DNA from: a virus
Direction: 5' to 3' (one strand)
IMG/VR virus record: IMGVR_UViG_3300033141_002059
Span: 1 to 43,666 of that record
DNA length: 43,666 nt
Below, one piece after another: positions 2,130 to 43,666 of the stretch. Each line of letters begins with the position of its first letter. Positions within the stretch are counted from its first letter, which is position 1. A program made the translations under genes and the position numbers. A model generated the notes under the pieces. The model worked only from the letters and a program-made list of their open reading frames with translations. It had not been told where the DNA came from and ran no database searches.

Positions 2130-2374
2130 AAAACAATAACAAAATAAGACCACAATGTGCTAAAACATTTGGCGAGCTGTTAGAGTTCAAAAAAAACATC
2201 GAAGAAGACATCGATGAAATAAAAGAAACTCTAACAAACCATATTCCTTCAGAGCTTAAAGAAATAAAAGAGAAATTAAGCAATAGGCCATCTTGGTCGG
2301 TGCTTAAAATTATCACTCTTTTGTCGTCTTTGGTAATGTTTTTATTGGGCCTAATAGCAAGCAAATTCTTATGA
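2126..2374 (+). CDS. Small coiled-coil protein with C-terminal membrane anchor, holin-like
   Basis: 82 residues. Residues about 15-50 form a charged helix likely to be a coiled coil; residues about 57-80 (IITLLSSLVMFLLGLIASKF) are a single C-terminal transmembrane segment. This plan resembles phage XhlA-type lysis accessory proteins, which pair with a holin and an endolysin, but only the architecture supports that. It is coupled by ATGA overlaps to the peptide before it and to the peptidase after it (2371-2374), so the three are probably translated together. Confidence 0.65.
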   Translation: MKNNNKIRPQCAKTFGELLEFKKNIEEDIDEIKETLTNHIPSELKEIKEKLSNRPSWSVLKIITLLSSLVMFLLGLIASKFL

Positions 2375-4428
2375 AAAAAATTATAAAAAATCCCGGCTTA
2401 GTCATACATAAACGGGATTACAGGGACATTACTTTCGGAGACGCTTTGAGAAGGGTAGATTTGCCTAAGGCATATATAACAAAGAAACTACTACCGGATT
2501 ACCAAAATGGCGTTCCGAAGTGCTTCCCGGCTAACGCTAGAGTATTAACAGAAGATTTTTCATTTAAGGAAATCTCTAAAATAAGAAAAGGAGAGTATGT
2601 ATATACTCATGCAGGAAGATCAAAAAAAGTCACAGAAACGTTTAAAAGGAAATGGCAAGGATATATTTATAAAATCAGAGTTGCGGGAATATATAAAGAA
2701 CTTGAATTAACAGCTGAACATCCAGTTCTGGTTTTAAGAAATGGAAAAACAAAATGGATTGAGGCAAAGGATATTATAAAAGAGACTGATAAAATTGCTA
2801 TTTTAGCTCCCTTAATAACAAAGGATAAAACTATTTGGTCGTTTGAAAAAGATAAAGAATTTTTATGGCTTTTAGGATTATATTTAGCAGAAGGATATTT
2901 TGGAAAAAGAAAAAGAGGAAAAAGAATTATTTTTGGGTTAAATTGGAAAGAACAGGAAATAGCAGAAAAAATTAAAAAAATTATTAAAAGACTATTTGAT
3001 TATGATGTTCAAATAAGAAAAGAAAAAAATCACTCGTTAGTAGTAGAGGTTAATAATACCCAAATTGCCGAGATCTTTAAAGAATTAGGAAATGAAAAGT
3101 GTCAAACAAAAAAAATAGATAAAAGATTGTTATTTCTTGATCCTCAACTACAATTAGAAATCATAAAAGGTTGGTTTGATGGAGATGGTCATTATCGAAA
3201 AGATAAAGATGGAGACAAGTTAGTAGGAATTACGACATCGCGGGATTTAGCATGGCAGATTTATCTGATAGCCATGAGAAATAAAATCAATATTAATCTC
3301 AGTAAAAGAAAAAAGAGAGATAACCGCAAAGACGTATATGTTCTTACTGTTAATAATAATGAAATTTTAAAAATTTACTCTAACCTAAATATTCAAAGAA
3401 AAGAATTTAAACGAAAGACTTGGAATAATGATTATCTTTTTAGCCAAATAATTTCTGTAAAGAAAGAAATTTATCGTGGCGGACACGTATATAATTTAGA
3501 AGTTAAGGACGATAATAGTTATTTAGTTAACTCTATTGTTGTTCATAATTGTGTGGCAGAAGCCTATTCGTATCTGGCCAGAAAGCAAGACTTTAAAGAA
3601 ACGGGCAAGGACTTTGCTCTATCAGCCGATGCTTTATATTCTTGGATTAAAAATTTTGTCGACAAAAATCGAGAATATGGCACTTCTTTGTTGAGCGGAG
3701 CAAAGGCCATTTGTAGCTTTGGAATACCGACAGAAGATGTCTATCCAGACGATGAAGAAAGATGGAAAGATAGAGATGATTATTTTGATCCGATACACTT
3801 TACTCAAGAAGTTATTAGAAGCGCGTCAATTTTTAAAAAGAAAACTTATATCAGGGCAAGCGGATACGGATGGGGTATGGTAAACCCAGAAGAAACAAAA
3901 CAAATGATATTTCAAAGAGAAGCAGTAGTCATAGGATTGAGATTTGACAATAATTGGTTTGCAGGAAGGAAATATCCTAAACCGCCGACAAGGCCAAAAT
4001 ATTATCATGCAGTATGTTTAGACAGCTGGAAGTATATCAATAATAATTTATTTTTTAGGGTAGTTAATTCTTTTGAGTCGGACCCTAAAAAAAGATTAGA
4101 AGAAAATGGGAGAGCATTTGGCTGGCTAAGGTGGGATTGGTGGCGACCGCATATCGTGGGAGCTTATACCACAATAGATCAACCGAATGTTTACCCAAAA
4201 ACAAAAATGATAAGAACAATTCGGGCAAAAGGAGATATTAAAGTTTATGCAGTAATCAACGGACATAGGTATTGGATAAGGCAACCAAAAATGTTTGAAG
4301 ACTTTAAAGAAGAAAAAATTATAGGAGACTGGAATGATGTGCAAGTGCTAAGCAAAGAAGAAGTAGAAAAATATCCATTGGAAAAAATAAGCTTTAAAGA
4401 TTTTCTAACAAATTATTTAGATAAATAA
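2371..4428 (+). CDS. Papain-like (C1-type) cysteine peptidase endolysin interrupted by an intein
   Basis: The 685-residue precursor contains exteins 1-50 and 394-685 around an intein (51-393). Joined, the exteins read QNGVPK|CVAEA, matching the papain arrangement of the oxyanion glutamine (Q45) six residues before the catalytic Cys (C394). The catalytic His is H546 in YYHAVC and the Asn is N566 in VVNSFE. The last ~70 residues hold a domain with the core NGHRYWI, a type often attached to secreted wall-associated proteins and, from memory, common in Patescibacteria. The mature protein would be about 342 residues. Its place among membrane proteins suggests it degrades host wall peptides or surface protein at lysis. 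No signal peptide is visible, so it would need a holin or another route out. Confidence 0.85.
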   Translation: MKKIIKNPGLVIHKRDYRDITFGDALRRVDLPKAYITKKLLPDYQNGVPKCFPANARVLTEDFSFKEISKIRKGEYVYTHAGRSKKVTETFKRKWQGYIYKIRVAGIYKELELTAEHPVLVLRNGKTKWIEAKDIIKETDKIAILAPLITKDKTIWSFEKDKEFLWLLGLYLAEGYFGKRKRGKRIIFGLNWKEQEIAEKIKKIIKRLFDYDVQIRKEKNHSLVVEVNNTQIAEIFKELGNEKCQTKKIDKRLLFLDPQLQLEIIKGWFDGDGHYRKDKDGDKLVGITTSRDLAWQIYLIAMRNKININLSKRKKRDNRKDVYVLTVNNNEILKIYSNLNIQRKEFKRKTWNNDYLFSQIISVKKEIYRGGHVYNLEVKDDNSYLVNSIVVHNCVAEAYSYLARKQDFKETGKDFALSADALYSWIKNFVDKNREYGTSLLSGAKAICSFGIPTEDVYPDDEERWKDRDDYFDPIHFTQEVIRSASIFKKKTYIRASGYGWGMVNPEETKQMIFQREAVVIGLRFDNNWFAGRKYPKPPTRPKYYHAVCLDSWKYINNNLFFRVVNSFESDPKKRLEENGRAFGWLRWDWWRPHIVGAYTTIDQPNVYPKTKMIRTIRAKGDIKVYAVINGHRYWIRQPKMFEDFKEEKIIGDWNDVQVLSKEEVEKYPLEKISFKDFLTNYLDK
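2521..3549 (+). other. Intein with LAGLIDADG homing endonuclease
   Basis: In-frame insertion of 343 residues. Splicing block A begins with Cys (CFPANARVLTEDF). Block B has the TxxH motif in LTAEHPVLV. Two LAGLIDADG-type motifs are present, LLGLYLAEGYF and IIKGWFDGDGHY, each with its acidic residue. The C-terminal blocks end in VVHN, giving the penultimate His and terminal Asn, followed by Cys as the +1 residue. Every residue needed for standard protein splicing is visible. The insertion lies immediately before the peptidase's catalytic cysteine, so the same residue serves as splicing nucleophile and later as protease nucleophile. Confidence 0.92.
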
Positions 4429-5083: not shown

Positions 5084-5131
5084 GTTACCAACAGGTGAGG
5101 GACTTGACAAAATTTTAAAAGGCGTTATTGT
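5084..5131 (+). promoter_or_regulatory. Promoter P1 with DnaA-box-like upstream element
   Basis: GTTACCAACAG (5084-5094) precedes a consensus -35 box TTGACA (5104-5109) by 9 bases. A weaker -10 box TATTGT (5126-5131) follows after 16 bases. The same three-part arrangement recurs at 5512-5557 and 15031-15079. A 12-bp palindrome, AAAGTTAACTTT (5145-5156), lies just past the expected start of transcription and could be an operator. It would drive the genes from 5188. Confidence 0.65.
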
Positions 5132-5187
5132 AAAGTTGAAATTAAAAGTTAACTTTAAAAAACTTGAACACTTTTAAAAAAATTTTT

Positions 5188-5367: not shown

Positions 5368-5511
5368 ATGAACAACTTAACCAAAATCGGATGGCAAAAC
5401 TTTTTTAAGGAGGTAGAATATAAAAAGGGCCCGGACAGGGAAACAGGATGGCACATTATTTTAGGAATATTAATTTTAATCATAATCGCATTGGCAGCGA
5501 CGCCAAGATGA
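5368..5511 (+). CDS. 47-residue single-pass membrane protein
   Basis: Starts at an ATG behind the A-rich leader AAACAATT, which also precedes several other small genes here. The first 28 residues are charged and polar; about 29-44 (WHIILGILILIIIALA) is one strong transmembrane segment at the C-terminus. No family recognised. Promoter P2 begins one base after its stop. An overlapping longer frame (5448-5672) is rejected because it crosses P2 and the structured RNA. Confidence 0.6.
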   Translation: MNNLTKIGWQNFFKEVEYKKGPDRETGWHIILGILILIIIALAATPR

Positions 5512-5557
5512 GTTATCAACAGTTTGGACTTGACAAATTTTTTGAGTGCGTTACTAT
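5512..5557 (+). promoter_or_regulatory. Promoter P2 with DnaA-box-like upstream element
   Basis: GTTATCAACAG (5512-5522), then TTGACA (5530-5535), 16 bases, and TACTAT (5552-5557). This aligns with P1 base for base over GACTTGACAA and has the same 16-base spacing. Transcription should start near 5564, about 33 bases before the structured RNA at 5597. Confidence 0.7.
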
Positions 5558-5596
5558 TAAAGTAGGATTAAAAGGCTGTGGAAAACTAAATAAAGA

Positions 5597-5668
5597 CATC
5601 CGCCGTCGGAAGCTCGGTACATACAGTTCTCTAACGAGGGCGGCGGATGCACCGAGCTTTCGGCTTTT
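5597..5668 (+). ncRNA. RNA with two perfect 9-bp crossing helices (switch or pseudoknot)
   Basis: Helix 1 pairs CATCCGCCG (5597-5605) with CGGCGGATG (5641-5649). Helix 2 pairs AAGCTCGGT (5610-5618), which lies in the loop of helix 1, with ACCGAGCTT (5651-5659), which lies after it. The helices cross. Only one base separates 5649 from 5651, so both full helices are hard to form at once; they may be alternatives. A third option, CCGA-GCTT-TCGG followed by CTTTT (5652-5668), looks like a weak terminator that uses part of helix 2. The element sits just behind promoter P2 and is far more GC-rich than its surroundings. It could be a small RNA or a regulatory leader for 5711. It matches no family I recognise. 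Confidence 0.7.
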
Positions 5669-5669
5669 A

Positions 5670-5679
5670 TAAAGGTCGA
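5670..5679 (+). repeat. TAAAGGTCGA intergenic motif, copy 2
   Basis: Exact copy of the 10-base motif, immediately after the crossing-helix RNA. Confidence 0.55.
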
Positions 5680-5710
5680 GGTGGAATAATAAAAATAAAT
5701 AAACAAAACT

Positions 5711-6130
5711 ATGATTAAAAAACTTTTAAATCAATATACGAAATTAAGCATCGAAATAGAAGACGAAAAGAAAAGACTGGGAATTAAAGCAAAGGAAAGA
5801 GAATTAGAAAAGGTCACTGATAAAATCAAAGAAATAGCTAGACAACTTGATGAAAGAGAAATAAATAAAGCAAAGAATGATTTTCACTATCTGCGAGTAG
5901 ATCGGCCATATAAAAAAGAATATAACTGGGAAGTCATCCAGCGATACGCCACCGAAGAAGAAAAAGAAATCATAGAAAAGAAGGCATTAAAGACAGAAAT
6001 AATATTTAACAAGTTTAATCAATTGGTAGAAGAAGGCTTGGTCTCAAGAGAATTGAGAACCAAACGAGGAGCGTTTAAGGAAAAAGCCTTGACTCCTCGA
6101 GTCGTAATTGTACCAATTAAAGAGAAATGA
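5711..6130 (+). CDS. Coiled-coil early protein of unknown function
   Basis: 139 residues. The first ~60 residues are a charged helix with heptad-like spacing; the C-terminal part is mixed and ends in a short hydrophobic strand (RVVIVPI). It overlaps the next gene by ATGA (6127-6130), so it is likely translated with the probable annealing protein and nuclease that follow. Position before a recombination pair recalls Gam-like nuclease inhibitors, which are also coiled coils, but I see no diagnostic motif. Confidence 0.6.
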   Translation: MIKKLLNQYTKLSIEIEDEKKRLGIKAKERELEKVTDKIKEIARQLDEREINKAKNDFHYLRVDRPYKKEYNWEVIQRYATEEEKEIIEKKALKTEIIFNKFNQLVEEGLVSRELRTKRGAFKEKALTPRVVIVPIKEK

Positions 6131-8062: not shown

Positions 8063-8827
8063 ATGGCAAGAATAAGAACAATTAATACAGACGAATTATT
8101 CTTTGATGATGAAATGACAAGCAATTACTCGGCGGCAGAGATCTTGGTTTATATTAGATTGTGGTGCATAGCAGAAGATTGGGGTGGATTTGATTGGGAT
8201 CCGAACAGCATAAAACTTAAAATGGGAGGGATTAAAATAACCACGGCACAAATAAAAAACTTTTTAGACAAAATGGTTGCCATGAAAAAAATAATTCTCT
8301 ACAAAAAAAATGGAAAAACAATTGGTTGGCTGAAAAACTTTTTAAAGCATCAGAGAATTACAAATCCTTCTTCGCCACAATTACCATTACCAGAATGGAT
8401 TAAGTTCAAAAAGAAAAAATATCCCAATGGAAAAAGTTATGCCGAATACGAAATCATTGAAAGTAAACTACCAGTAGACTACTACTATCTTAATAACGGT
8501 ACAAACAATAAAAAAGAAAAGAATAATAATAGCAAACCCAACAATACAACACCATTTTTTGCTCCTATTAAAGATTACTTTATAGAGGCTTATAGGAAAA
8601 AGTTTAATTCGGATCCGGCAATTTCCTTCGGAGCAGAGGGCAGGCTAATAAACAATAAAAGAGGTCTCTTCACCGGAGTTAAAGAAGCTTATAAATTAAT
8701 AGACGATTTTCTTGTAAGTGCGAAAGCAGAAGAATGCGGTTATACGCTTTCAGTTTGCTTTTCGGCCCATACAATAAATCTTTGGAAAGCGGGCAAGCTA
8801 AGAAGAAAATCGTTCGAAATAAAATGA
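8063..8827 (+). CDS. Phage replisome-organiser-like replication protein
   Basis: 254 residues. The N-terminus MARIRTINTDELFFDD and the following block with IRLWCIAEDWGGFDWDP match the winged-helix N-terminal domain of phage replication initiators and replisome organisers, which begin MARIRTIKPEF and carry LWxxADxxGR-like text. A low-complexity Asn/Lys linker (about 148-165) leads to a C-terminal helical domain that may contact a host helicase or loader. No phage helicase or polymerase was found, so it would recruit host machinery to the origin. It overlaps the next gene by ATGA. Confidence 0.75.
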   Translation: MARIRTINTDELFFDDEMTSNYSAAEILVYIRLWCIAEDWGGFDWDPNSIKLKMGGIKITTAQIKNFLDKMVAMKKIILYKKNGKTIGWLKNFLKHQRITNPSSPQLPLPEWIKFKKKKYPNGKSYAEYEIIESKLPVDYYYLNNGTNNKKEKNNNSKPNNTTPFFAPIKDYFIEAYRKKFNSDPAISFGAEGRLINNKRGLFTGVKEAYKLIDDFLVSAKAEECGYTLSVCFSAHTINLWKAGKLRRKSFEIK

Positions 8828-9469: not shown

Positions 9470-9919
9470 ATGAGCAAGAGAATTAGACCAATTTTTTACG
9501 GACACGTTAAAAATGGAAAGCTGGAAATCTATGATAAGCAAAAATTTAGAATGTGGTTGAGAGAACTGAATGAGAAAGAAGTTGAAATAAGAGTAAATAA
9601 ATATAAAGACAAAAGAACAAATAGTCAAAATAGGTATTATTGGGGAGTGGTGTTAGAAATTTTATCAGATTATACTGGCCATGAACCAGAAGAACTACAT
9701 GAAGTTTTAAAAGAAATAATGCTCCCCAAAAAAGAAGTTAAGTTTAAATTAAGTGACGGAAAGGAAGTCATACGGAAAATCTCAATCAGCACTGCCGAAT
9801 TATCTACCGGAGCATTCGAAACATATCTGCAAAAGATTAGAGAATGGGCCCAGAAAAGATTAAATTGTTTTATTCCTCTTCCTAACGAGTTTGAACCAGA
9901 GCCAATAACTTATTATTAA
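9470..9919 (+). CDS. NinB/Orf-like recombination protein
   Basis: 149 residues. The pattern KRTNSQNRYYWGVVLEIL, then ELHEVLKEIMLP, then a serine-rich strand and a final helix with WAQKRLNCFIPLP, fits the NinB family (lambda Orf), a recombination mediator that acts with ssDNA-binding protein. It begins two bases after the preceding stop, in the same early cluster as the annealing protein and nuclease, which supports a recombination role. The assignment rests on remembered pattern only. Confidence 0.6.
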   Translation: MSKRIRPIFYGHVKNGKLEIYDKQKFRMWLRELNEKEVEIRVNKYKDKRTNSQNRYYWGVVLEILSDYTGHEPEELHEVLKEIMLPKKEVKFKLSDGKEVIRKISISTAELSTGAFETYLQKIREWAQKRLNCFIPLPNEFEPEPITYY

Positions 9920-9928
9920 AACAAAAAA

Positions 9929-10699
9929 ATGAAACAATACAACATAGTTTCAGGATGGAATAGAGGTGGAACTTCTTGCCTTATGGCTCTTTTAAGGGAA
10001 GCCGGTGTTCCAATCGTAGGATTTAAATATCCGTTTGAATTTGAAACAGTCGAGATAGAAGATGGGAAAATTAAGGGTCAGAAAAAAATAGATACTGGGC
10101 TGTATTTGCCATATAAAAAAGAAACAAAAAATATAAATCCAAGTGGATTTTGGGAAATTCCCTCGATCTGCCTAGGAGAAGGATTGCAAGAGAGACACGG
10201 GGAAATCGGGGAAAATGGAGATTTAATAAAAGTTCCATTGGGAGTTTTGCCCTCTTCTAATCCCGATTTGGTAAACAAGGTAATAATTATTTTGAGAGAT
10301 CCTTTAAAAGTAATTAAGAGTCAATTAAAGACAAATAAGCCAAAAAATGAAGAAGAATGGATCCGGGTTGCAAGTATTGGACTTATTTATAATTTATTGG
10401 TATCATTAAAATGGATTGGAAAAAATAAAAAGGAAGGATGGCTTTTATACTATGAAGATTTATTAAAAGACCCCGAGCAAGAATTATTGGATATAGGTGC
10501 TTTTTTGGGAAGGCCAGTATATCTGCCGGCTACGAAAATAATTAATAAAGAACTTGATAGATCAGAAAAAATTAGGGCGAAATATAAAGAAACCAAGCAA
10601 TTAGTAAAATTTTACAAGGAAAAAGATTTTAATTGGACTCATTATAATTTAGAAAAAATGAAGAAAGAAATAGATAAAATTAAGAAACAATACTTATGA
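9929..10699 (+). CDS. Sulfotransferase-family protein
   Basis: 256 residues. The N-terminal VSGWNRGGTSCLMALL is a sulfotransferase P-loop of the SGxxRxGTS type that binds the 5'-phosphosulfate of PAPS. RDP (123-125) followed by Ser131 matches the 3'-phosphate-binding motif. YEDLLKDPEQELLDIGAFLG is the usual C-terminal signature. It would transfer sulfate to an unknown acceptor: a glycan, small molecule or protein. It is unusual among replication genes and may change the host surface or the phage's own components. It overlaps the next small gene by ATGA. Confidence 0.82.
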   Translation: MKQYNIVSGWNRGGTSCLMALLREAGVPIVGFKYPFEFETVEIEDGKIKGQKKIDTGLYLPYKKETKNINPSGFWEIPSICLGEGLQERHGEIGENGDLIKVPLGVLPSSNPDLVNKVIIILRDPLKVIKSQLKTNKPKNEEEWIRVASIGLIYNLLVSLKWIGKNKKEGWLLYYEDLLKDPEQELLDIGAFLGRPVYLPATKIINKELDRSEKIRAKYKETKQLVKFYKEKDFNWTHYNLEKMKKEIDKIKKQYL

Positions 10700-14163: not shown

Positions 14164-14352
14164 ATGGTTAAATTTTATCAAGCTCGCAAGAAAATAGAAC
14201 TTAAATGCATCAGATGTAAAAAAAACTATTTAGGCCACGTTCGGACTAGAAAATATTGTTTTGATTGTAGAATGGAGATTAAAAGAGAAAGAGCAAGAAA
14301 TAAAAAATATGGGATTAAAAAACACAAGACAAAAAGGGAGAAAGTTAGTTAA
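14164..14352 (+). CDS. Small zinc-finger protein
   Basis: 62 residues behind the leader AAAACAATT. CIRCKK and YCFDCR give a CxxC...CxxC zinc site within a Lys/Arg-rich chain. Its last 44 bases overlap the start of the next gene. It probably binds nucleic acid. Confidence 0.6.
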   Translation: MVKFYQARKKIELKCIRCKKNYLGHVRTRKYCFDCRMEIKRERARNKKYGIKKHKTKREKVS

Positions 14353-14740
14353 AATAATTTTAGGCATTTTGAGACGAGAATTAGATGGATCAAGCTACGA
14401 GGTTGTAGGTTCTGGTATGGGAAAAGATAAGGGCGATATACGAGTGCCAAGATTGGATTTAGTAATTGAAGTTAAGAACCAACAAACAATAAGAATGGCT
14501 GAATGGGTCAAGCAAGCAGAAAAAGAGGGCCTAGGATATAGCGAGGCAGTAGTAATGTGGAGACACCCCGAAAGCCCACAGGAAAGACCAGATATCCGGG
14601 TAGATATGAGCCTTGATTATTTTATAGAATTGGCTCAAAGATTTGCCGAGCCGATCACAAAAGAACCAAGCAGGGAATTAAAATATAAACTTGAAAGGCT
14701 TAAAAACGATTGCCATCAAGTAATTAAATTAATTAAATAA
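14309..14740 (+). CDS. PD-(D/E)XK endonuclease, Holliday-junction-resolvase-like
   Basis: 143 residues from the ATG at 14309; an in-frame ATG at 14261 lies deeper inside the previous gene. After a helix (ILGILRREL) the core reads GKDKGDIRVPRLDLVIEVKNQ: Asp of GDI and the ExK of IEVKNQ are the catalytic pattern of resolvase-like nucleases. The chain continues with a helix, WVKQAEKE, and the strand EAVVMWRHP. It probably resolves branched phage DNA before packaging or acts in recombination. Confidence 0.72.
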   Translation: MGLKNTRQKGRKLVKIILGILRRELDGSSYEVVGSGMGKDKGDIRVPRLDLVIEVKNQQTIRMAEWVKQAEKEGLGYSEAVVMWRHPESPQERPDIRVDMSLDYFIELAQRFAEPITKEPSRELKYKLERLKNDCHQVIKLIK

Positions 14741-14745
14741 TAAAT

Positions 14746-15060
14746 ATGCCAAAGAGAAAAAAAATCACCCCAGAAGAAATGTTAAAAATGGTAGAGAGGA
14801 GCCTAAAAAACCACATGCAAGAAGTAAATGAAAAAATTAGCCAGATTCAGCAGAAAGAATCAATTCCAATAAAAAAACCAAGGAATCCTTCAATAAATAA
14901 TTCATTCATTCATTGCGAGTTTATCAGGCCCGCTCAATTCAGGGAAGATGAAGTAGAAAGATTTAAAAAAGAGTTAGAAGAATTAATGAAGCGATATGAG
15001 ATCAATTATCTTCGAGCCATGATTTTAGCAGTTATCCACAGAAAAGACCTTGACAAATAA
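14746..15060 (+). CDS. Unknown protein
   Basis: 104 residues: a helical N-terminus with possible coiled coil (MLKMVERSLKNHMQEVNEKISQ is interrupted here only for brevity), a Pro/Lys linker, and a C-terminal two-helix unit. No family recognised. Promoter P3 lies across its 3' end. Confidence 0.55.
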   Translation: MPKRKKITPEEMLKMVERSLKNHMQEVNEKISQIQQKESIPIKKPRNPSINNSFIHCEFIRPAQFREDEVERFKKELEELMKRYEINYLRAMILAVIHRKDLDK

Positions 15061-15079
15061 ATTAAAATCAGTATATACT
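15031..15079 (+). promoter_or_regulatory. Promoter P3 with perfect DnaA box
   Basis: GTTATCCACAG (15031-15041) contains the DnaA-box consensus TTATCCACA. Eight bases later is TTGACA (15050-15055), then 18 bases and TATACT (15074-15079). This is the best -35/-10 pair in the window and repeats the P1/P2 arrangement. It would drive the leader at 15094 and the ParB-methyltransferase gene. It overlaps the last codons of the preceding gene. Confidence 0.75.
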
Positions 15080-15093
15080 TAGTAATAGAAGAA

Positions 15094-15127
15094 CAACTTT
15101 GAGGTAAATTTGCTCAGCTAAAAGTTG
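15094..15127 (+). promoter_or_regulatory. Leader stem-loop after P3
   Basis: CAACTT (15094-15099) pairs with AAGTTG (15122-15127), with an inner TGAG/CTCA helix. It starts about 8 bases after the expected transcription start. Further along, at 15177-15197, a six-codon frame (MNKVLF) ends right before the terminator hairpin, as in attenuation leaders. That role is speculative. Confidence 0.5.
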
Positions 15128-15196
15128 AAGTATTAATTTCACACACCAAAAAGAAATGCATTTTTTTCTATTAAAAATGAATAAAGTTTTATTTTA

Positions 15197-15230
15197 AAAG
15201 CTTCACCTAAGAAAGCAGGGTGGAGTTTTT
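15197..15230 (+). terminator. Intrinsic terminator or attenuator before the methyltransferase
   Basis: CTTCACC (15201-15207) pairs with GGTGGAG (15219-15225, one G-T pair), and flanking AAAAG pairs with the following TTTTT (15226-15230). The stem followed by a T run is a standard rho-independent terminator. It lies between P3 and the gene it should drive, so it may set a regulated read-through level, or end a small RNA of about 145 bases. Confidence 0.7.
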
Positions 15231-15250
15231 AAATTCAAAATAATAGGAAA

Positions 15251-16761
15251 TTGAAAGCAGAATCACAACTAAAAATAGAATACGTTGACTTGGAACAACT
15301 TAGACCGAACGAGTATAACCCGAAGTCAATGACAGAAAAAGCAGAAAAAGATTTGACAAATTCTATCAAAAAGTTCGGCGTTGTAGATCCGCTAATCGTA
15401 AACAAGGCAAAGGGAAGAAAGGGAGTTATTATAGGCGGACATCAAAGATATAAAATTTATAAAAAATTAAATTTTAAAAAAGTTCCGATTATTTGGATAA
15501 ACATCTCTGATCTTGAAAAAGAAAGAGAGCTATGTTTGCGTTTATCAAAAAATATAGGAGAATGGGATTATGAATTGCTGGCAAACTTTGACGAGGATAT
15601 GCTGTTAGATGTCGGGTTCGAGGCAGAGGAATTAGATACTATTTTTGGGTTAGAAATAGATGATAGTTTTGATGTAGAGAAAGAAGTTGAAAAAGTATTA
15701 AAAGATAAAAAAAGAAGATGTAAAGAAGGAGATTTGTGGCAATTAGGAGATCATAAATTAATTGTAGGAGACGCAACAGATAGAAAGGCTTGGGAGAAAC
15801 TATTAGGAGAAGAAAGGTTTGATTTTATGTTTACGGATCCGCCTTATAAGATCGCTTACACACAAAGAGCACGCAAAGTAACCACAAAGGACGGGAAATC
15901 AAAACTAAAAAAAGACAAAGTATATGAGAGCGTAGGAAAAACAGACTCAAAAGGAAGATTTAAAGGATATGTAAAAACCAAAAAAGGATTTGGCTATAGG
16001 AGTCAAAGAACTTATTTAGGTGTAGAAAAAAGAGGAGGTGTTCCAGAATATGATGAATGGTTATCAATAGCAAACGATTTTCAAAATCCGGTAGGAGCAA
16101 ATGTAATGATTTTCGAAAACTGGCGAAACACGAGGGAATTATGGGATGCAATAGAGAAATACTGGAAGGTAAAGAATATGATAATTTGGCATTTGCCAAA
16201 TCGTCATCAAGGTTTTAGTCGTCCTTATTTCTTCTTTAATAAAAAGGTTATGATATTGCACCTTTAGCAGGCGAAGGAATTTTAAATGAAGAATACGAAC
16301 AAGAATTAGATGATTATTTAAAAGAGAAAGGACAGAAATTATTAGACACCTATGAAGTTACGCTTTATGGTCAGAAAGAAGATAGTAATTGGTTTGGATA
16401 TAATACTCCTGAAGAGAAACAAAAGAAAGGATATTACAAAAGAGTAAAAGGAACGCCATGGGCTAAAATATCAGATCATATAACTTGGACAGCTCAAACA
16501 GAAAAATCAAGCGGACAAAACGTAATTTTTGGAACAAAGCCAATTCAAATTTTAGTTCCCTATATTAAAATACTAAGTCCAAGATATGGAATAGTAATGG
16601 AACCATTTGCCGGCTCCGGCTCAACTATAATTGCTTCTGAAGTAATGCATAGAAAATGTCGGGCAATAGAATTAGAACCATTGTATGCAGAAGTAATATT
16701 AAGTCGTTGGGAGAAGTTTGTAAACAAGAAAGCTAAAAAACTAACAAATAAGGGAAAATAG
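15251..16761 (+). pseudogene. ParB-like nuclease domain fused to DNA methyltransferase, frameshifted
   Basis: The first frame (15251-16267, from a TTG start) has a ParB/sulfiredoxin-like domain (LRPNEYNPK, VIIGGHQRYK) then the methyltransferase motif IV, TDPPY. The sequence then continues in the -1 frame from about 16249 to 16761, giving YDIAPLAGEGIL and the SAM-binding motif EPFAGSGSTIIASE. The order DPPY before FAGSGS is that of beta-class N6-adenine/N4-cytosine methyltransferases. The frame change occurs at a run of five A (16241-16245); one more A would restore a single ~503-residue protein. It may be a real mutation, a sequencing error or recoding. An intact enzyme would mask phage DNA from restriction or regulate its expression. 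Confidence 0.8.
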
Positions 16762-16897: not shown

Positions 16898-16932
16898 CTA
16901 AAGATAAAGTTCTTTGATTAAACTTCTTATTA

Positions 16933-16982
16933 CTTCCGCCTATTGCTTCCAGTTAGAGCCGAAGCCCTACAATAAGCGGAAG
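16933..16982 (-). other. Long intergenic hairpin, minus operon 3' end
   Basis: CTTCCGC/GCGGAAG (16933-16939 with 16976-16982), TATTG/CAATA and GCTTC/GAAGC stack into one long interrupted stem. It lies just downstream of the minus-strand gene ending at 16993. Similar hairpins follow the other two minus-strand genes, so it may be a processing or stability element. Confidence 0.6.
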
Positions 16983-16992
16983 AGTAAAAAGT

Positions 16993-17184
16993 TTAGTTGT
17001 TTATATAAATTCTTTTAAGGTATTGGTTCAGAGACTTAATCTTTCTTATTTTGGCATCAGGACGATATTTATCCTTGTAGTATTTGGCGCCCTTAAAGGT
17101 TTTGAAGTATATCTGCCCTTTTCGGCAAAATCCTTGCGGTGTAGTAATAGAGTCTGTAATCACATAAATAGGATGTTTCAACAT
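16993..17184 (-). CDS. Small basic protein, minus operon
   Basis: 63 residues. A short beta-like N-terminus (HPIYVITDSITT) precedes a basic region (FKTFKGAKYYKDKY) and a helical end. No family recognised. It is the third gene of the minus-strand operon, with strong hairpins on either side. Confidence 0.5.
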   Translation of the reverse strand: MLKHPIYVITDSITTPQGFCRKGQIYFKTFKGAKYYKDKYRPDAKIRKIKSLNQYLKRIYINN

Positions 17185-17232
17185 TTTAATTGTTAAGGCA
17201 CTGGAAGAAACCTCTGATTAATTTCCTCTATT

Positions 17233-17268
17233 GCTCCAACCAATTAGCTACTGATAACTGATTGGAGC
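17233..17268 (-). other. Intergenic hairpin, minus operon
   Basis: GCTCCAA (17233-17239) pairs with TTGGAGC (17262-17268), seven perfect pairs; CCAAT and ATTGG offer an alternative register. It lies between the genes at 17279-17512 and 16993-17184. Confidence 0.55.
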
Positions 17269-17278
17269 TAAAAAGAAA

Positions 17279-17512
17279 CTATTGTATGTTTTTCTCCATT
17301 TTTCTTGGAACTTGAAGCCAAGTTTCGCATTCTGGACATATCCAACACTCAATTTCTTCACCCACTTCACATTTTCGCTCCCAGCCATCGTGAAAATCAT
17401 ACTCATAACATACCAAATTAGTTTGCCACTGAAGAATTGAAGTTTGTTTTTTGCCACAACTTGGACAAATAAAATAGTTTTTGGTGAATTTTTTAATTCT
17501 TTTTCTTTTCAT
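17279..17512 (-). CDS. Zinc-ribbon protein, minus operon
   Basis: 77 residues. CPSCGKK and CPECETW give a CxxC...CxxC pair about 43 residues apart, with two further cysteines between. The N-terminus is very basic (MKRKRIKKFTK). It is probably a nucleic-acid-binding or regulatory protein. A second frame at 17248-17457 on the same strand lacks such a pattern and is taken as a shadow. Confidence 0.6.
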   Translation of the reverse strand: MKRKRIKKFTKNYFICPSCGKKQTSILQWQTNLVCYEYDFHDGWERKCEVGEEIECWICPECETWLQVPRKMEKNIQ

Positions 17513-17568
17513 TTTTTCAAAGAGCCAGCCAGTAGCTCTGGCAAGATTAATTTTTAATTCCCTTTGTC

Positions 17569-17600
17569 CTACCTCCTATAGTTGCGGCTATAAGAGGTAG
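17569..17600 (-). other. Intergenic hairpin, minus operon
   Basis: CTACCTC/GAGGTAG (17569-17575 with 17594-17600) and TATAG/CTATA form a 12-pair stem with loop TTGCGG. The loop and its flank (GTTGCGG) are exactly complementary to CCGCAAC upstream of the first minus-strand gene, about 17795-17801, which might allow a long-range contact. It lies between two minus-strand genes. Confidence 0.6.
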
Positions 17601-17610
17601 AGAAAAGAAA

Positions 17611-17778
17611 CTAAACAATTGAAATTCTGGACTGGAGCTTTGCATTTCTTTTAAAAAATTCTTTTTCTACTTTATCATACCATTTTTGAACATTTTTGGG
17701 GGCTTTTTCGGGAAAAACATTTTGAATTATACTCCATAATGCTTCGGTTGATAATTTTTTGGGGCTTGTTAGTTTCAT
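17611..17778 (-). CDS. Small protein, first gene of minus operon
   Basis: 55 residues from the ATG at 17778; a TTG five codons upstream (17793) is possible. The chain is basic and helical (TEALWSIIQNVFPEKAP, KWYDKVEKEFFKR). No family recognised. It is nearest the minus-strand promoter. Confidence 0.5.
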   Translation of the reverse strand: MKLTSPKKLSTEALWSIIQNVFPEKAPKNVQKWYDKVEKEFFKRNAKLQSRISIV

Positions 17779-17816
17779 ATTTTTAATGAGCAATCCGCAA
17801 CTTGCTTGATTATAAA

Positions 17817-17879
17817 GAGACGACTCTTAACCGTCAGGTATTAAGAGCCGTCTCAAAAATCTTAATAAAAATCCTGACG
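17817..17879 (-). promoter_or_regulatory. H-type pseudoknot-capable leader of the minus operon
   Basis: A 14-base stem pairs GAGACGACTCTTAA (17817-17830) with 17841-17854, with a single mismatch. Its 10-base loop contains CGTCAGG (17832-17838), exactly complementary to CCTGACG at 17873-17879. The 18-base A/T-rich linker is long enough to span the stem. The element lies between the minus promoter (17921-17949) and the first minus gene, so it should be in that leader RNA. Inverting the strand preserves the topology. Confidence 0.65.
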
Positions 17880-17920
17880 ATTAAAATAAACTTTTATATT
17901 TTCAAACTTCTATATTATTA

Positions 17921-17959
17921 ATGATAACATACTAAAAATAAAAAGTCAAGTGTGGACAA
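17921..17959 (-). promoter_or_regulatory. Minus-strand promoter
   Basis: On the minus strand TTGACT (17949-17944) is followed after 17 bases by TATCAT (17926-17921). Immediately upstream of the -35 box is TTGTCCACA (17959-17951), one mismatch from a DnaA box. It is the only good promoter facing the minus-strand genes. Confidence 0.6.
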
Positions 17960-40600: not shown

Positions 40601-43600
40601 TGGCCTTCCGGGAAAAATAGAATATAGGTACCCTACTTATGTATTACCAGAAGAAAAGAGAGGAATGGAGGAATATAATTATCTTATTGTCTATCGAGAA
40701 ATTATTTATCAAAGCCCAATCAAAAATAATGCTTCTGAAATTCATTGGATGGGTGATTTCCCTAACTATTTTGCTCACGTAAGATATGAGAACATAGCTC
40801 CAGCAAATATCCGTCGAATACTAGAGATTCAATCTGACCTATTTCAAAAAGGAAGAATAGAAAGAGAATTAGAAATAATGAGACAATTCAAAACTGGAAC
40901 AGAAGTAATATATAAAGGGAAAAAAACAACAGTTAGAGGAGCTCCATATAAGGGCAAGGTTTATTTAACAGGATACAAAAAAGCAATTCCAGTTGAAAAA
41001 GTAGAAACCATAAAAGAATATATCGATAAACTCCAACCCTACCGTAATACTTGGCATGAACGAATAATTCGTGAAGAAATAAGGCGTGCAGCAGAAGAAG
41101 GATTTAAAAAACTAAGATTTCCTACTGGAGAAACGGCAATGATAATCGAGGGACTGGGAGAACCTCAAAGATGGCTATTTGCAAGACCCGTAACAGTAGA
41201 AGGAGTGGAGACAAAAGAAATGAGACCATTAAAAGAAAGAGACCTTAAAGTTGGATTGGAAGTTACTCAAGATGAATTATATGAAGATATGTGGATAGTC
41301 ACCGATGTTCTCGGAGAAGGAAAATTTAAGGCAGTGCCGAAAGAGGCTATAAATAAATATAACGAAGAATACTGGGAAGATTACTTAATATACAAAGAAA
41401 GCAAAAAAGAGTTTGTTGAGAATTGGATGGATGCAGGACTTAGTCGTTCAGAAGCAGAAGGAAGATTAAAAGAAGTTTTGGAAGTTGTCAATAATGAAAT
41501 ATTAAATAGGGCAGAAACCTTTGACATCTCCGGCAAAATAGACACCTCAAACCCAATCTACCGTTTCTACGAATCAGAAGTTCAGAAATATCTTAAAAAG
41601 ATAAAACCAGAAATGAAACGAATTAAGGACAAACAAGGAGTGGAATGGTTTGAAATACCAATTGAGTGGGAAGATAAAACAAAACCAATTTATGCGTTCA
41701 AAGCCGGCGATGTTGTAGCAGAGCCAGCTTATAACATTTCTATAAAAGAAGCCAAGAAAATCTGGAGTAAATTTTTCAATGAAAATGAAGTTAAGTTTAT
41801 CGCTAAAAAACAATTACCACCGGATCCTCAAGGGAGAGTAGTATATGGCAGGTATGCAGACGCCTTGGTAGAAGTTGTAGAAAAGAACGGAAAGATTGAT
41901 GACAAAGTTCTTTACCACGAAGCTTTTCACGCTTATGTAGATTTATTCGTAGACGAAAAGACCAAGAAAGAATTATTTACTGAATATTCAGAAGAAGAAC
42001 TGGCAGATGGTTTTGCTGATTATGTTGCAACTAAAAAAGCCCCAACTACAAAAATTAAATCATTTTTCAAGAAATTATTAGCTTTTATTAAAAAATTAAT
42101 ATCCAAACAAAATAAAGTCGAAACATTATTTGACGATATTATTACAAGAAAAAGGGCAAGAAGGATAAAAAAACCAACCCCAATTGAAAGGTTTAAGGCA
42201 AAAAGAATAAGATCCTTGGATAAAATAATAGAAGAAGAAGCGAAATATTTGAAAGAAATAGAGCCAAAGCCAACAAGGGAAGAAATGATGATCAAGCAGC
42301 CAAAAGGAGTATTGGGAGAAAAGATTAAAGTCGCGAAAGAAGAATACAGAAGGATTTCGCCACATAGTTCTGGATATAGAAGATTTTATAAAAAACACAA
42401 AAGAGCTCCTAGATCATTAAATGATTGGAAAGAAATAGCTAGAGAAGAATTAGAAGCCGGAAGAAGCGAACTGGGATTAGCTGAAGAATACGCAGCAGCA
42501 GTAGAAAAAATAGAAGCAAAAAAACCGACAGAAGAAATAGATGTCGAGGCTATGTTCGAGGAATTAGAAAAAGCTGATTTAGAAAAAGCAGAAAAAGAAA
42601 GAATAGAAAGAGAGGCAAGGGCGGCCCTAATTTCTGAAAGAGAGAAAGAAGAATTCTTGGAAAGTTTATCAGAAGAATTACAGACAAAAATTAGATTAAA
42701 TAGAAGACTTACGCCAAAAGAAGCTACGCGAGTAGGAAAAGCTTTAATAGAATTTATAAAAACTGGTGGAAAGAAAGAAAAAGTAATTGGAGTACCCGAA
42801 TCAAAACTTTTAAAACTAAGACTAAGAGCCGAAGCAAGAGGAGCAAGGTGGGGACTAGAAGCGGCCAGAGAAAAAATAACAGCAATTAGAGAAGAATACA
42901 GAAAGAAGATAAAAGACTATGATAAAACCAGAGAAAGACTATATAAATACATTAAAAAGAACTTGCCACCTTCGGAAAGAGGAAAGGCACTGGCAAGATT
43001 AAAATCAGTAAAAACAGAAATAGGATTAAAAAGAGCAATTACTTATACGCAAAATGTTTTAGAAAGATATCTGGCCAAGAAAGAAATGAAGAAAATGATA
43101 AAAGAAATAAAGAAAATTCCTACTAGCGGAATGAGTTACGATTACAGAAAAAAAATTGAAGGAATTAAGGAAATGTTTGATCTTAAAAGAAGAACAGAAA
43201 GAACATTAAAAAGACGAGAAAAACTATTAGAATTTGTTTTAAGGGAAACAACTTTGCCGATGTCGAGAGAGGAATTTGAGACCGCGATGAAAGAAAAGAA
43301 AGAAGTCCCACTTTCAATTTCAACTCCAGTCCCGAGAGAACTAATCATGGAAGCACTTAGGAAACCTCTCAATCAATTAAATATTGAGGAAGTTCGGACA
43401 TTGCATAAAACCTTGATGAACTTGGCTCACTTGGGAAGAACCAAGCATCGGCTTTTAAAGGTTTCAGAAAAAAGAGAAATAAAAAAACAACAAAAAGTTT
43501 TATTAGAATTGGCGGATAAGAATAAGAAAAAATTAGAAGAAATAGAAGAAAAGCTAAAAGGAATTAAATTAGCTAAAGAAAAAACTCGGTGGGGAAGAAT

Positions 43601-43666
43601 TAAATATGGTATGAAGAAATATTACTGGAAGAATATTCGACCAGAAAGAATTTTAGAAAAGCTTGA
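37629..43666 (+). CDS. Large polyvalent protein with two metallopeptidase motifs (N-terminal part)
   Basis: The frame opens with ATG at 37629 and has no stop to the window end; it continues at base 2 to 2035, giving 2,652 residues. An N-terminal domain (about 80-180, with SWRPNWYKKYGG) is followed by a hydrophobic, Gly-rich region. Two zincin motifs appear: HEAQH (766-770) and HEAFH (1430-1434), the second followed by EELADGFADY, which can give the third zinc ligand. Between them, PNYFAHVRYE, EIQSDLF (1066-1072) and NTWHERIIREEIRRAAE form a block typical of phage large polyvalent proteins. Long helices follow. Such proteins are thought to enter the host with the DNA. Their substrates here are unknown. 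Confidence 0.87.
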   Translation, partial: MIKFENGKLVLVKKIVEPKPFTKISKKGDFIFPKPVPTRQYRVPIGPQPKEKALTYETKKYFAVAEVPNKEPVGDWLQLTEKPLIDMKKKYGVDKSLTLDQIKADPQLYEQVANIFVNKYLEDCGLKTWKDKAIWSWRPNWYKKYGGDINKVPNVLVEVAKGQWRRARDVLRQRKRRVEEYERQLTIPKPSVLSLRKEKPKEMKGAERIIPPQKYNVVLTDDLKGLKVVETNEIIPREELSPEAHEIYRELLKREAGRKTPLEKRLEALDVEKNVPLTLTEKLLGPFIRTIYPTRIPLAIAEKIAGKKLAVTYKELSQKSPVSTAISGILGDLYNLVALGRIFGPLQYIVKLPRDIGFAWPYLNRLIPEAIRLAATFGTKGLLDETITQFQSGKFDPERLATETGKEAVFGSLLAGTGVIKPTVPRILATGGMFGGWTTLAKYIKNGKIDKKDLLDIGSNILLGIMFETINARGVTARLKQTDFDSFLRNEMISRLVMRGASEKEAIQIVKTIEYLGGLKREIPGIEQRIPRKFKDIGLLSKEEQYKIADQLAKDIKESVVKEGKRPSEAISEALEKRGFYKIEIEKPRVTELKKAGPVFKIKKITPITEKETKVRDIKKVVLEYMGHIEPTEEDIKAFEEMYGHLERPEITDILRRSERKDLIPYIKEMKKIKIPRKQVTLTKVMDEIYEKLKEEKGEVYIKDEIEEFNSRNYTIGNFLKMLPPEFKEIADTKVKLGESGRYEIHKNTIYLPAVEARYADKTLIHEAQHALETVRGEYTREVHPMRRTLIEMIRKTPWTFTREEIIKKVEGYTRLPEPHKFTKKEAEELIERAIRVWEKEMEEVKTMRRRWRALDREQKKIYREEMKRRREMGFYGKKEELEAIELAEKRKKPKEYKYKVAIPKGLPAFKGAKKLTTKVLEELKGKTIVSKRFIFDQLNREGIKQAEKDIIIRLLQEYPEGKKVPVKEFAEKVEMELLPLKVGDAGMEVHGLPGKIEYRYPTYVLPEEKRGMEEYNYLIVYREIIYQSPIKNNASEIHWMGDFPNYFAHVRYENIAPANIRRILEIQSDLFQKGRIERELEIMRQFKTGTEVIYKGKKTTVRGAPYKGKVYLTGYKKAIPVEKVETIKEYIDKLQPYRNTWHERIIREEIRRAAEEGFKKLRFPTGETAMIIEGLGEPQRWLFARPVTVEGVETKEMRPLKERDLKVGLEVTQDELYEDMWIVTDVLGEGKFKAVPKEAINKYNEEYWEDYLIYKESKKEFVENWMDAGLSRSEAEGRLKEVLEVVNNEILNRAETFDISGKIDTSNPIYRFYESEVQKYLKKIKPEMKRIKDKQGVEWFEIPIEWEDKTKPIYAFKAGDVVAEPAYNISIKEAKKIWSKFFNENEVKFIAKKQLPPDPQGRVVYGRYADALVEVVEKNGKIDDKVLYHEAFHAYVDLFVDEKTKKELFTEYSEEELADGFADYVATKKAPTTKIKSFFKKLLAFIKKLISKQNKVETLFDDIITRKRARRIKKPTPIERFKAKRIRSLDKIIEEEAKYLKEIEPKPTREEMMIKQPKGVLGEKIKVAKEEYRRISPHSSGYRRFYKKHKRAPRSLNDWKEIAREELEAGRSELGLAEEYAAAVEKIEAKKPTEEIDVEAMFEELEKADLEKAEKERIEREARAALISEREKEEFLESLSEELQTKIRLNRRLTPKEATRVGKALIEFIKTGGKKEKVIGVPESKLLKLRLRAEARGARWGLEAAREKITAIREEYRKKIKDYDKTRERLYKYIKKNLPPSERGKALARLKSVKTEIGLKRAITYTQNVLERYLAKKEMKKMIKEIKKIPTSGMSYDYRKKIEGIKEMFDLKRRTERTLKRREKLLEFVLRETTLPMSREEFETAMKEKKEVPLSISTPVPRELIMEALRKPLNQLNIEEVRTLHKTLMNLAHLGRTKHRLLKVSEKREIKKQQKVLLELADKNKKKLEEIEEKLKGIKLAKEKTRWGRIKYGMKKYYWKNIRPERILEKL
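43553..43666. repeat. Terminal direct repeat, right copy
   Basis: Identical to 1-114 over all 114 bases. It marks the overlap that closes the genome into a circle of 43,552 bp. Confidence 0.95.

Follow-up and report, generated by a model that had tools for sequence, protein, structure and literature searches.

What is the function of the short GC-rich stretch that separates a consensus promoter from the first gene of an early operon in this phage? The window, by which we mean the whole stretch of DNA analysed, is a 43,666-base IMG/VR record of a phage with a direct terminal repeat of 114 bp (1-114 = 43553-43666), a GC content of 35.3%, and nearly all of its genes on the plus strand. Genes for terminase, portal, major capsid, a replication initiation protein (8063-8827), NinB (9470-9919), and a RusA-like resolvase (14261-14740) are present. 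A peptidase-like gene (2371-4428) contains an intein that bears a LAGLIDADG endonuclease domain, the early region includes a sulfotransferase-domain gene (9929-10699; Pfam Sulfotransfer_1, E 1.3e-9), and a ParB-like/DNA-methylase gene (15251-16761) is apparently split into an ORF at 15251-16267 and a methylase-like piece at 16597-16761. Our preferred reading, which we hold with middling confidence, is that the region serves as the 5' leader to an early phage operon, acting as a promoter-proximal bistable attenuator. The parts of this leader are as follows:

5513-5521, plus strand: DnaA-box-like sequence TTATCAACA, 5' of the promoter.
5530-5557, plus strand: sigma70-type promoter TTGACA-N16-TACTAT, matching the consensus at 10 of 12 positions; expected transcription start near 5564-5565.
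5597-5607, plus strand: 5' arm of helix S1, directly 5' of hairpin S2; perfect over 9 bp, 11 bp with a U.G and a C-G pair added.
5605-5618, plus strand: 5' arm of S2, a 14-bp terminator-like hairpin that includes a perfect 9 bp and two G.U pairs.
5639-5649, plus strand: 3' arm of S1, within the apical loop of S2.
5651-5664, plus strand: 3' arm of S2, pairing with 5605-5618.
5665-5671, plus strand: U tract UUUUAUA following S2; short, a weak to moderate intrinsic-terminator tail.
5660-5683, plus strand: third hairpin S3 (5660-5667/5672-5679, plus 5650-5653/5680-5683), appearing in a constrained fold with S1 imposed and S2 absent.
5711-6130, plus strand: first gene of the downstream early operon, 139 aa, with weak, sub-threshold matches only.

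The first-pass annotation of this DNA had described two perfect 9-bp helices (5597-5605/5641-5649 and 5610-5618/5651-5659) that cross each other, separated by linkers of 4 (5606-5609), 22 (5619-5640), and 1 (5650) bases; helices and linkers are exact in the sequence. Both helices proved longer than first noted, at 11 bp for S1 (one G.U) and 14 bp for S2 (two G.U), and their full-length arms overlap at 5605-5607. Stacking energies are -27.9 kcal/mol for S2 and -24.3 kcal/mol for S1. The annotation was also right that the region is GC-rich in an AT-rich genome (0.56 over 5601-5675 vs 0.353 overall) and that a promoter lies upstream, S1 beginning about 33 nt past the expected transcription start. 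Its embedded terminator-like hairpin required revision: a terminator-like fold is present, but the 4-bp CCGA/TCGG hairpin that had been proposed is only a minor sub-fold, and the real structure is the whole of S2, since TTTT (5665-5668) directly follows the full 14-bp stem. Our terminator scan missed S2 because its loop limit was 8 nt. The sole ORF passing through the region (5448-5672) overlaps the promoter and has no match in Pfam or PHROGs, and the conserved protein frame that the annotation had named as counterevidence was thus rejected.

A second promoter, at 5104-5131, resembles the one at 5530-5557; the two share a 49-nt block in tandem (5100-5148 vs 5526-5574, 73% identity, 426 bp apart). 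Upstream of these tandem promoters lies GAGTTAYCAACAG, and upstream of the late promoter at 15050 lies CAGTTATCCACAG. Across the phage group, DnaA-box-like sequences (TTATCCACA and near variants) occur no more than 45 nt upstream of 8 of 102 TTGACA promoters, against 0.67 expected (window 5513-5521 and 15032-15040; L127:5482, L139:3289, L126:16971, L119:1429, L154:1006, and L205:975). Judging from these sites, the promoters of these phages may respond to host DnaA.

The same layout, a promoter-near hairpin S2 of 14-21 bp in which the apical loop, in some cases together with the adjoining arm, is complementary to the stretch immediately 5' of the hairpin, was found in about six relatives and at a second site in the window, on the minus strand, in each case with unrelated sequence. 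Three examples were seen on reading 3' of strong promoters in relatives: G028 (L127:4713, plus), G033 (L139:3902, minus), and G027 (L125:5109, minus). Systematic scans added G026 (L121:6167, minus), G430 (L215:16510, plus), the window's minus strand (17884-17817), and G002 (L070:4314, minus), the last with a promoter consisting of an extended -10 only. The architecture was defined after the examples in the window, G028, G033, and G027 had been seen, and those in G026, G430, and the window's minus strand came from the scan. About half of the complete relatives do not have the element. The G033 element is syntenic with that of the window, lying in both phages between a holin gene and a replication gene, and G033 alone carries a replication protein related to the window's. 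The genes directly behind the elements appear unrelated to one another and differ every time. The second window element and the late leader are composed as follows:

17921-17949, minus strand: promoter TTGACT-N17-TATCAT of the second element, with TG preceding the -10.
17817-17884, minus strand: second element; S1 17884-17873/17838-17827 (TTAATCGTCAGG/CCTGACGGTTAA), S2 17854-17841/17830-17817, then TTTATAAT; MFE z-score -3.4.
16993-17793, minus strand: small-gene operon behind the second element, with ORFs 17793-17611, 17512-17279, and 17184-16993.
15050-15233, plus strand: probable late promoter and leader, ending in an ordinary 16-bp hairpin (15193-15208/15218-15233); the same principle without the crossing helix.

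Throughout the minus-strand operon (16925-17793) a long hairpin stands behind each of the three small ORFs, including a 20-bp one around 16990-16925. In G033 (L138:16925-16990), a terminator (AAAGAGAACG/CGTTCTCTTTTTTT) and a second strong hairpin that it crosses (AACGAGAGGAAG/CTTCCTCTCGTT) make up a further interleaved pair, with no clear promoter.

Capsid relatives of the window phage comprised 22, later 39, viral contigs and one Candidatus Woesebacteria (CPR) assembly contig; because of the latter, a CPR host is likely for this phage and its relatives. In G028, a group I intron (L127:15311-15503; Rfam RF00028, 82 bits) lies at the 3' end of the recognizable capsid gene match, which ends at residue 311. 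Sequence homologues of the leader region itself were not recovered by an exact-pattern search of viral contigs, by a distant DNA search of phages and plasmids, by a protein search with the upstream late gene, or by searching the replication protein against viral contigs and 379 CPR-phylum genomes; the two downstream early genes likewise had no relatives in protein searches. Rfam at gathering score matched only a tRNA over the whole window. In the relatives, only a tRNA and a group I intron matched; at E<10 nothing relevant was returned for the leader region.

The next question is whether S1 and S2 form together or in turn. A stable H-type or HDV-like pseudoknot would hold both at once, its tertiary fold serving, for example, to bind a protein or obstruct an enzyme. 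In the window the linkers may leave room for both helices, both are strong, and with linkers of 4, 22, and 1 the two 9-bp helices could lie next to each other; long L2 linkers are also found in G027 and G430. Elsewhere, the linkers are 8, 1, and -3 in G028 (L1, L2, L3, the last an overlap by 3), S1b overlaps the upper S2 stem in G033, and S1b extends 4 nt into S2b in the window's minus-strand element. From known pseudoknot geometry or from shared bases, full S1 and full S2 could not exist together in these three, and it is on this ground that alternative folds are favored over a stable pseudoknot. A binding surface would also have to be maintained without conserved sequence. We regard the pseudoknot as unlikely.

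Constrained folds of the window leader gave -34.9 kcal/mol with S1 forced and -40.2 with S2 forced; the corresponding values were -30.7 and -34.7 for the minus-strand element and -39.2 and -38.0 for G028. S2 is better than S1 by 15 kcal/mol or more in G033, G026, G027, G002, and G430. By these energies, thermodynamic bistability would be limited to the two window elements and G028, and S1 would be transient in the others. When nascent prefixes of the window leader were folded, S1 was the MFE structure with the 3' end at about 5647-5655 and S2 from about 5659 onward. Among the eight elements, S1 was best for roughly ten nucleotides and then gave way to S2 in five; it remained best in G028 and was never the MFE of any prefix in G027 or G002. 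S1 is thus predicted to precede S2 in most elements, with near balance in three only. The U tract after S2 is fair in the window's minus-strand element and in G033, with little or none in G027, G002, and G430. In G026 a hairpin with a U tract shares an arm with S2 and competes with it, such that S2 in that phage may be an antiterminator, and the sign of the switch may differ among members.

If the elements are folding switches in some form, do they act on the transcript that carries them? The first-pass annotation had proposed a small RNA or switch of no known family. Much of that stands, in that the RNA is predicted to be structured with mutually exclusive helices, has no Rfam match, and has a layout that recurs in relatives; a cis-acting leader switch is favored over a free small RNA because the element heads an operon in several phages. 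A terminated small RNA of roughly 100 nt, ending near 5670 and acting in trans, would account for the promoter, the compact stable fold, and the U tract, which stand in the correct order. In the relatives examined, however, the elements head an operon, each with a start codon close behind it (about 5 to 46 nt away), and their sequences are not conserved as would be expected for a target in trans. We consider a small RNA doubtful.

A switch at the level of translation, with S2 masking or exposing the ribosome-binding region of the first gene, draws support from G033, where the start codon is about 5 nt past S2 and GGTGAGG falls within S2b. Similarly, GGGGAG falls within S2b in G002, and S3 in the window would mask GAGGTGG. 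The window start codon is nevertheless 46 nt downstream, with about 23 nt separating it from the purine-rich stretch, and most genes in these phages are A-rich at their starts without a Shine-Dalgarno sequence, making this reading quite improbable. A short recurring hairpin, AAGAG..GCCAG..CTCTT, which precedes an A run and a start codon (L127:5126-5153, L138 near 7953, and window near 17548-17512 on the minus strand), is possibly a start-site element in these phages.

Could the crossing have arisen by chance, as a terminator-like hairpin beside an accidentally complementary flank? Intergenic hairpins are common in these phages, and some crossing pair, AT-rich in composition, appeared in 22% of 150 whole-window dinucleotide shuffles. 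None of the 150, however, contained a crossing pair with at least 5 G/C per helix, none of 3000 local shuffles contained a crossing 9-bp pair, and the pair at 5597-5659 is the only crossing of perfect 9-bp helices in the whole window. The leader (5565-5710) has an MFE of -40.2 kcal/mol and a z-score of -4.3. We also surveyed 197 long intergenic hairpins in the relatives, 22 of them behind a promoter scoring at least 10.5, taking S1 as complementarity between flank and loop and the expectation from shuffled flanks. Six of the 22 had an S1 of -16 kcal/mol or lower (one of them, G423 on L204, is a weaker case), against 0.16 expected, or about 35 times expectation; at -13 kcal/mol there were eight, against 1.07. 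For hairpins with a promoter score below 9 in the same phages, the counts were 8 vs 8.0 expected at -13 and 5 vs 1.56 at -16 (Fisher p about 0.0006). Of 8 promoter-linked hairpins in unrelated phages (613 kb in all; terminase relatives, lambda, TP901-1, and Sfi21), none qualified. A separate test of 135 promoter leaders yielded 5 compact crossings at -13, one of which (G021) is an ordinary terminator paired in a slipped register, against 0.13 expected. Chance alone is very unlikely. A role at the DNA level, as operator or origin, is less likely given arms 22-35 nt apart and internal mismatches in the transcribed sense of 7 G.U vs 2 A.C, an excess that weakly favors a role in RNA and is only suggestive.

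We return to the leader attenuator, the best single account of the element. Its computed basis consists of the two helices, the order and energies predicted for them, and the reappearance of the architecture behind promoters in related phages; in the window a promoter (5530-5557) is followed by a leader before the gene start at 5711, with S1 as a competing upstream helix. Support for a transcriptional role is positional and contextual: the elements stand at the heads of operons whose downstream genes differ in every case, for which reason operon-level control fits, and ordinary hairpins, several with U tracts, stand between the probable late promoters and the late genes in the window (15050), G028, G033, and G021, which makes promoter-proximal termination control plausible for the group. 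This account is weakest at the U tract, which is short here and missing from some members. The leader is probably a folding switch that decides transcription of the operon behind it. The proposed order of events is as follows: RNA polymerase would make S1a, S2a, and then S1b, allowing the S1 hairpin to form first. Within about ten more nucleotides S2b would emerge, and the more stable S2 with its U tract could replace S1, the two excluding each other by topology and by their small overlap. Where S1 persisted, alone or with S3 downstream, the polymerase would read through, or access to the message would be changed; where S2 formed, the polymerase would be stopped or slowed. The balance would be set by some factor, perhaps a phage protein, an RNA acting in trans, or the speed of elongation. 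Mutual exclusivity in vivo, termination at S2, and the factor that sets the balance are what we infer.

Among known systems, the element appears to be a variant of leader attenuation that would work most like the pT181-type attenuators, without being a member of that group or of the HK022 putRNAs. In the pT181-type repC leader, an anti-terminator sequence located upstream competes with a terminator hairpin, giving two folds of the 5' leader (PMC4878617). The leader described here is likewise predicted to fold two ways, with an upstream sequence competing against a terminator-like hairpin. In pT181, however, the anti-terminator pairs with the terminator's 5' arm, an antisense RNA being the trigger, whereas in the present leader most of the flank's pairing is with the apical loop, making the helices cross, and no strong antisense promoter opposes the element (best score 8.5; a weak one is possible). 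The HK022 putRNA is a structured RNA of about 70 nt just past an early phage promoter; it consists of two side-by-side stem-loops, occurs as putL and putR copies with shared sequence, and binds RNA polymerase (PMC9378689). Both systems thus place a structured RNA close behind an early phage promoter, but a put element was rejected on anatomy, given crossing helices and elements without shared sequence.

In the lambda pR'-tR' late leader, the promoter is closely trailed by a terminator-like hairpin before the operon, and Q provides antitermination. The window's late leader at 15050 is similar in placing a hairpin after the promoter; the lambda leader has no counterpart to the crossing S1 helix, and no Q homologue was found among the small ORFs tested. 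H-type pseudoknots, of which the T4 gene 32 leader is one, share the pairing topology of the element but differ from it in that the linkers of several members here are too short for both complete helices and there is no conserved loop sequence. An HDV-like ribozyme, in which P1 and P2 cross and a joining strand with the catalytic C, usually with P4, lies between P1' and P2', was rejected on anatomy: a single base (5650) separates the 3' arms, and there is no Rfam match.

Perhaps the broadest implication concerns whether these leaders constitute a class defined by architecture alone: a hairpin that lies some tens of nucleotides past a promoter, has a loop complementary to the segment on its 5' side, and is reused at several operons of CPR phages. 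We offer this tentatively, as possible rather than probable. If true, a folding race would time or gate transcription without an aptamer or conserved sequence. The means by which phages of CPR (Patescibacteria) bacteria regulate their operons have hardly been explored, and elements that preserve pairing topology but not sequence escape covariance searches. Such a class, if real, would offer a sequence-independent route to leader switches and a testable natural case of regulation by the order of co-transcriptional folding.
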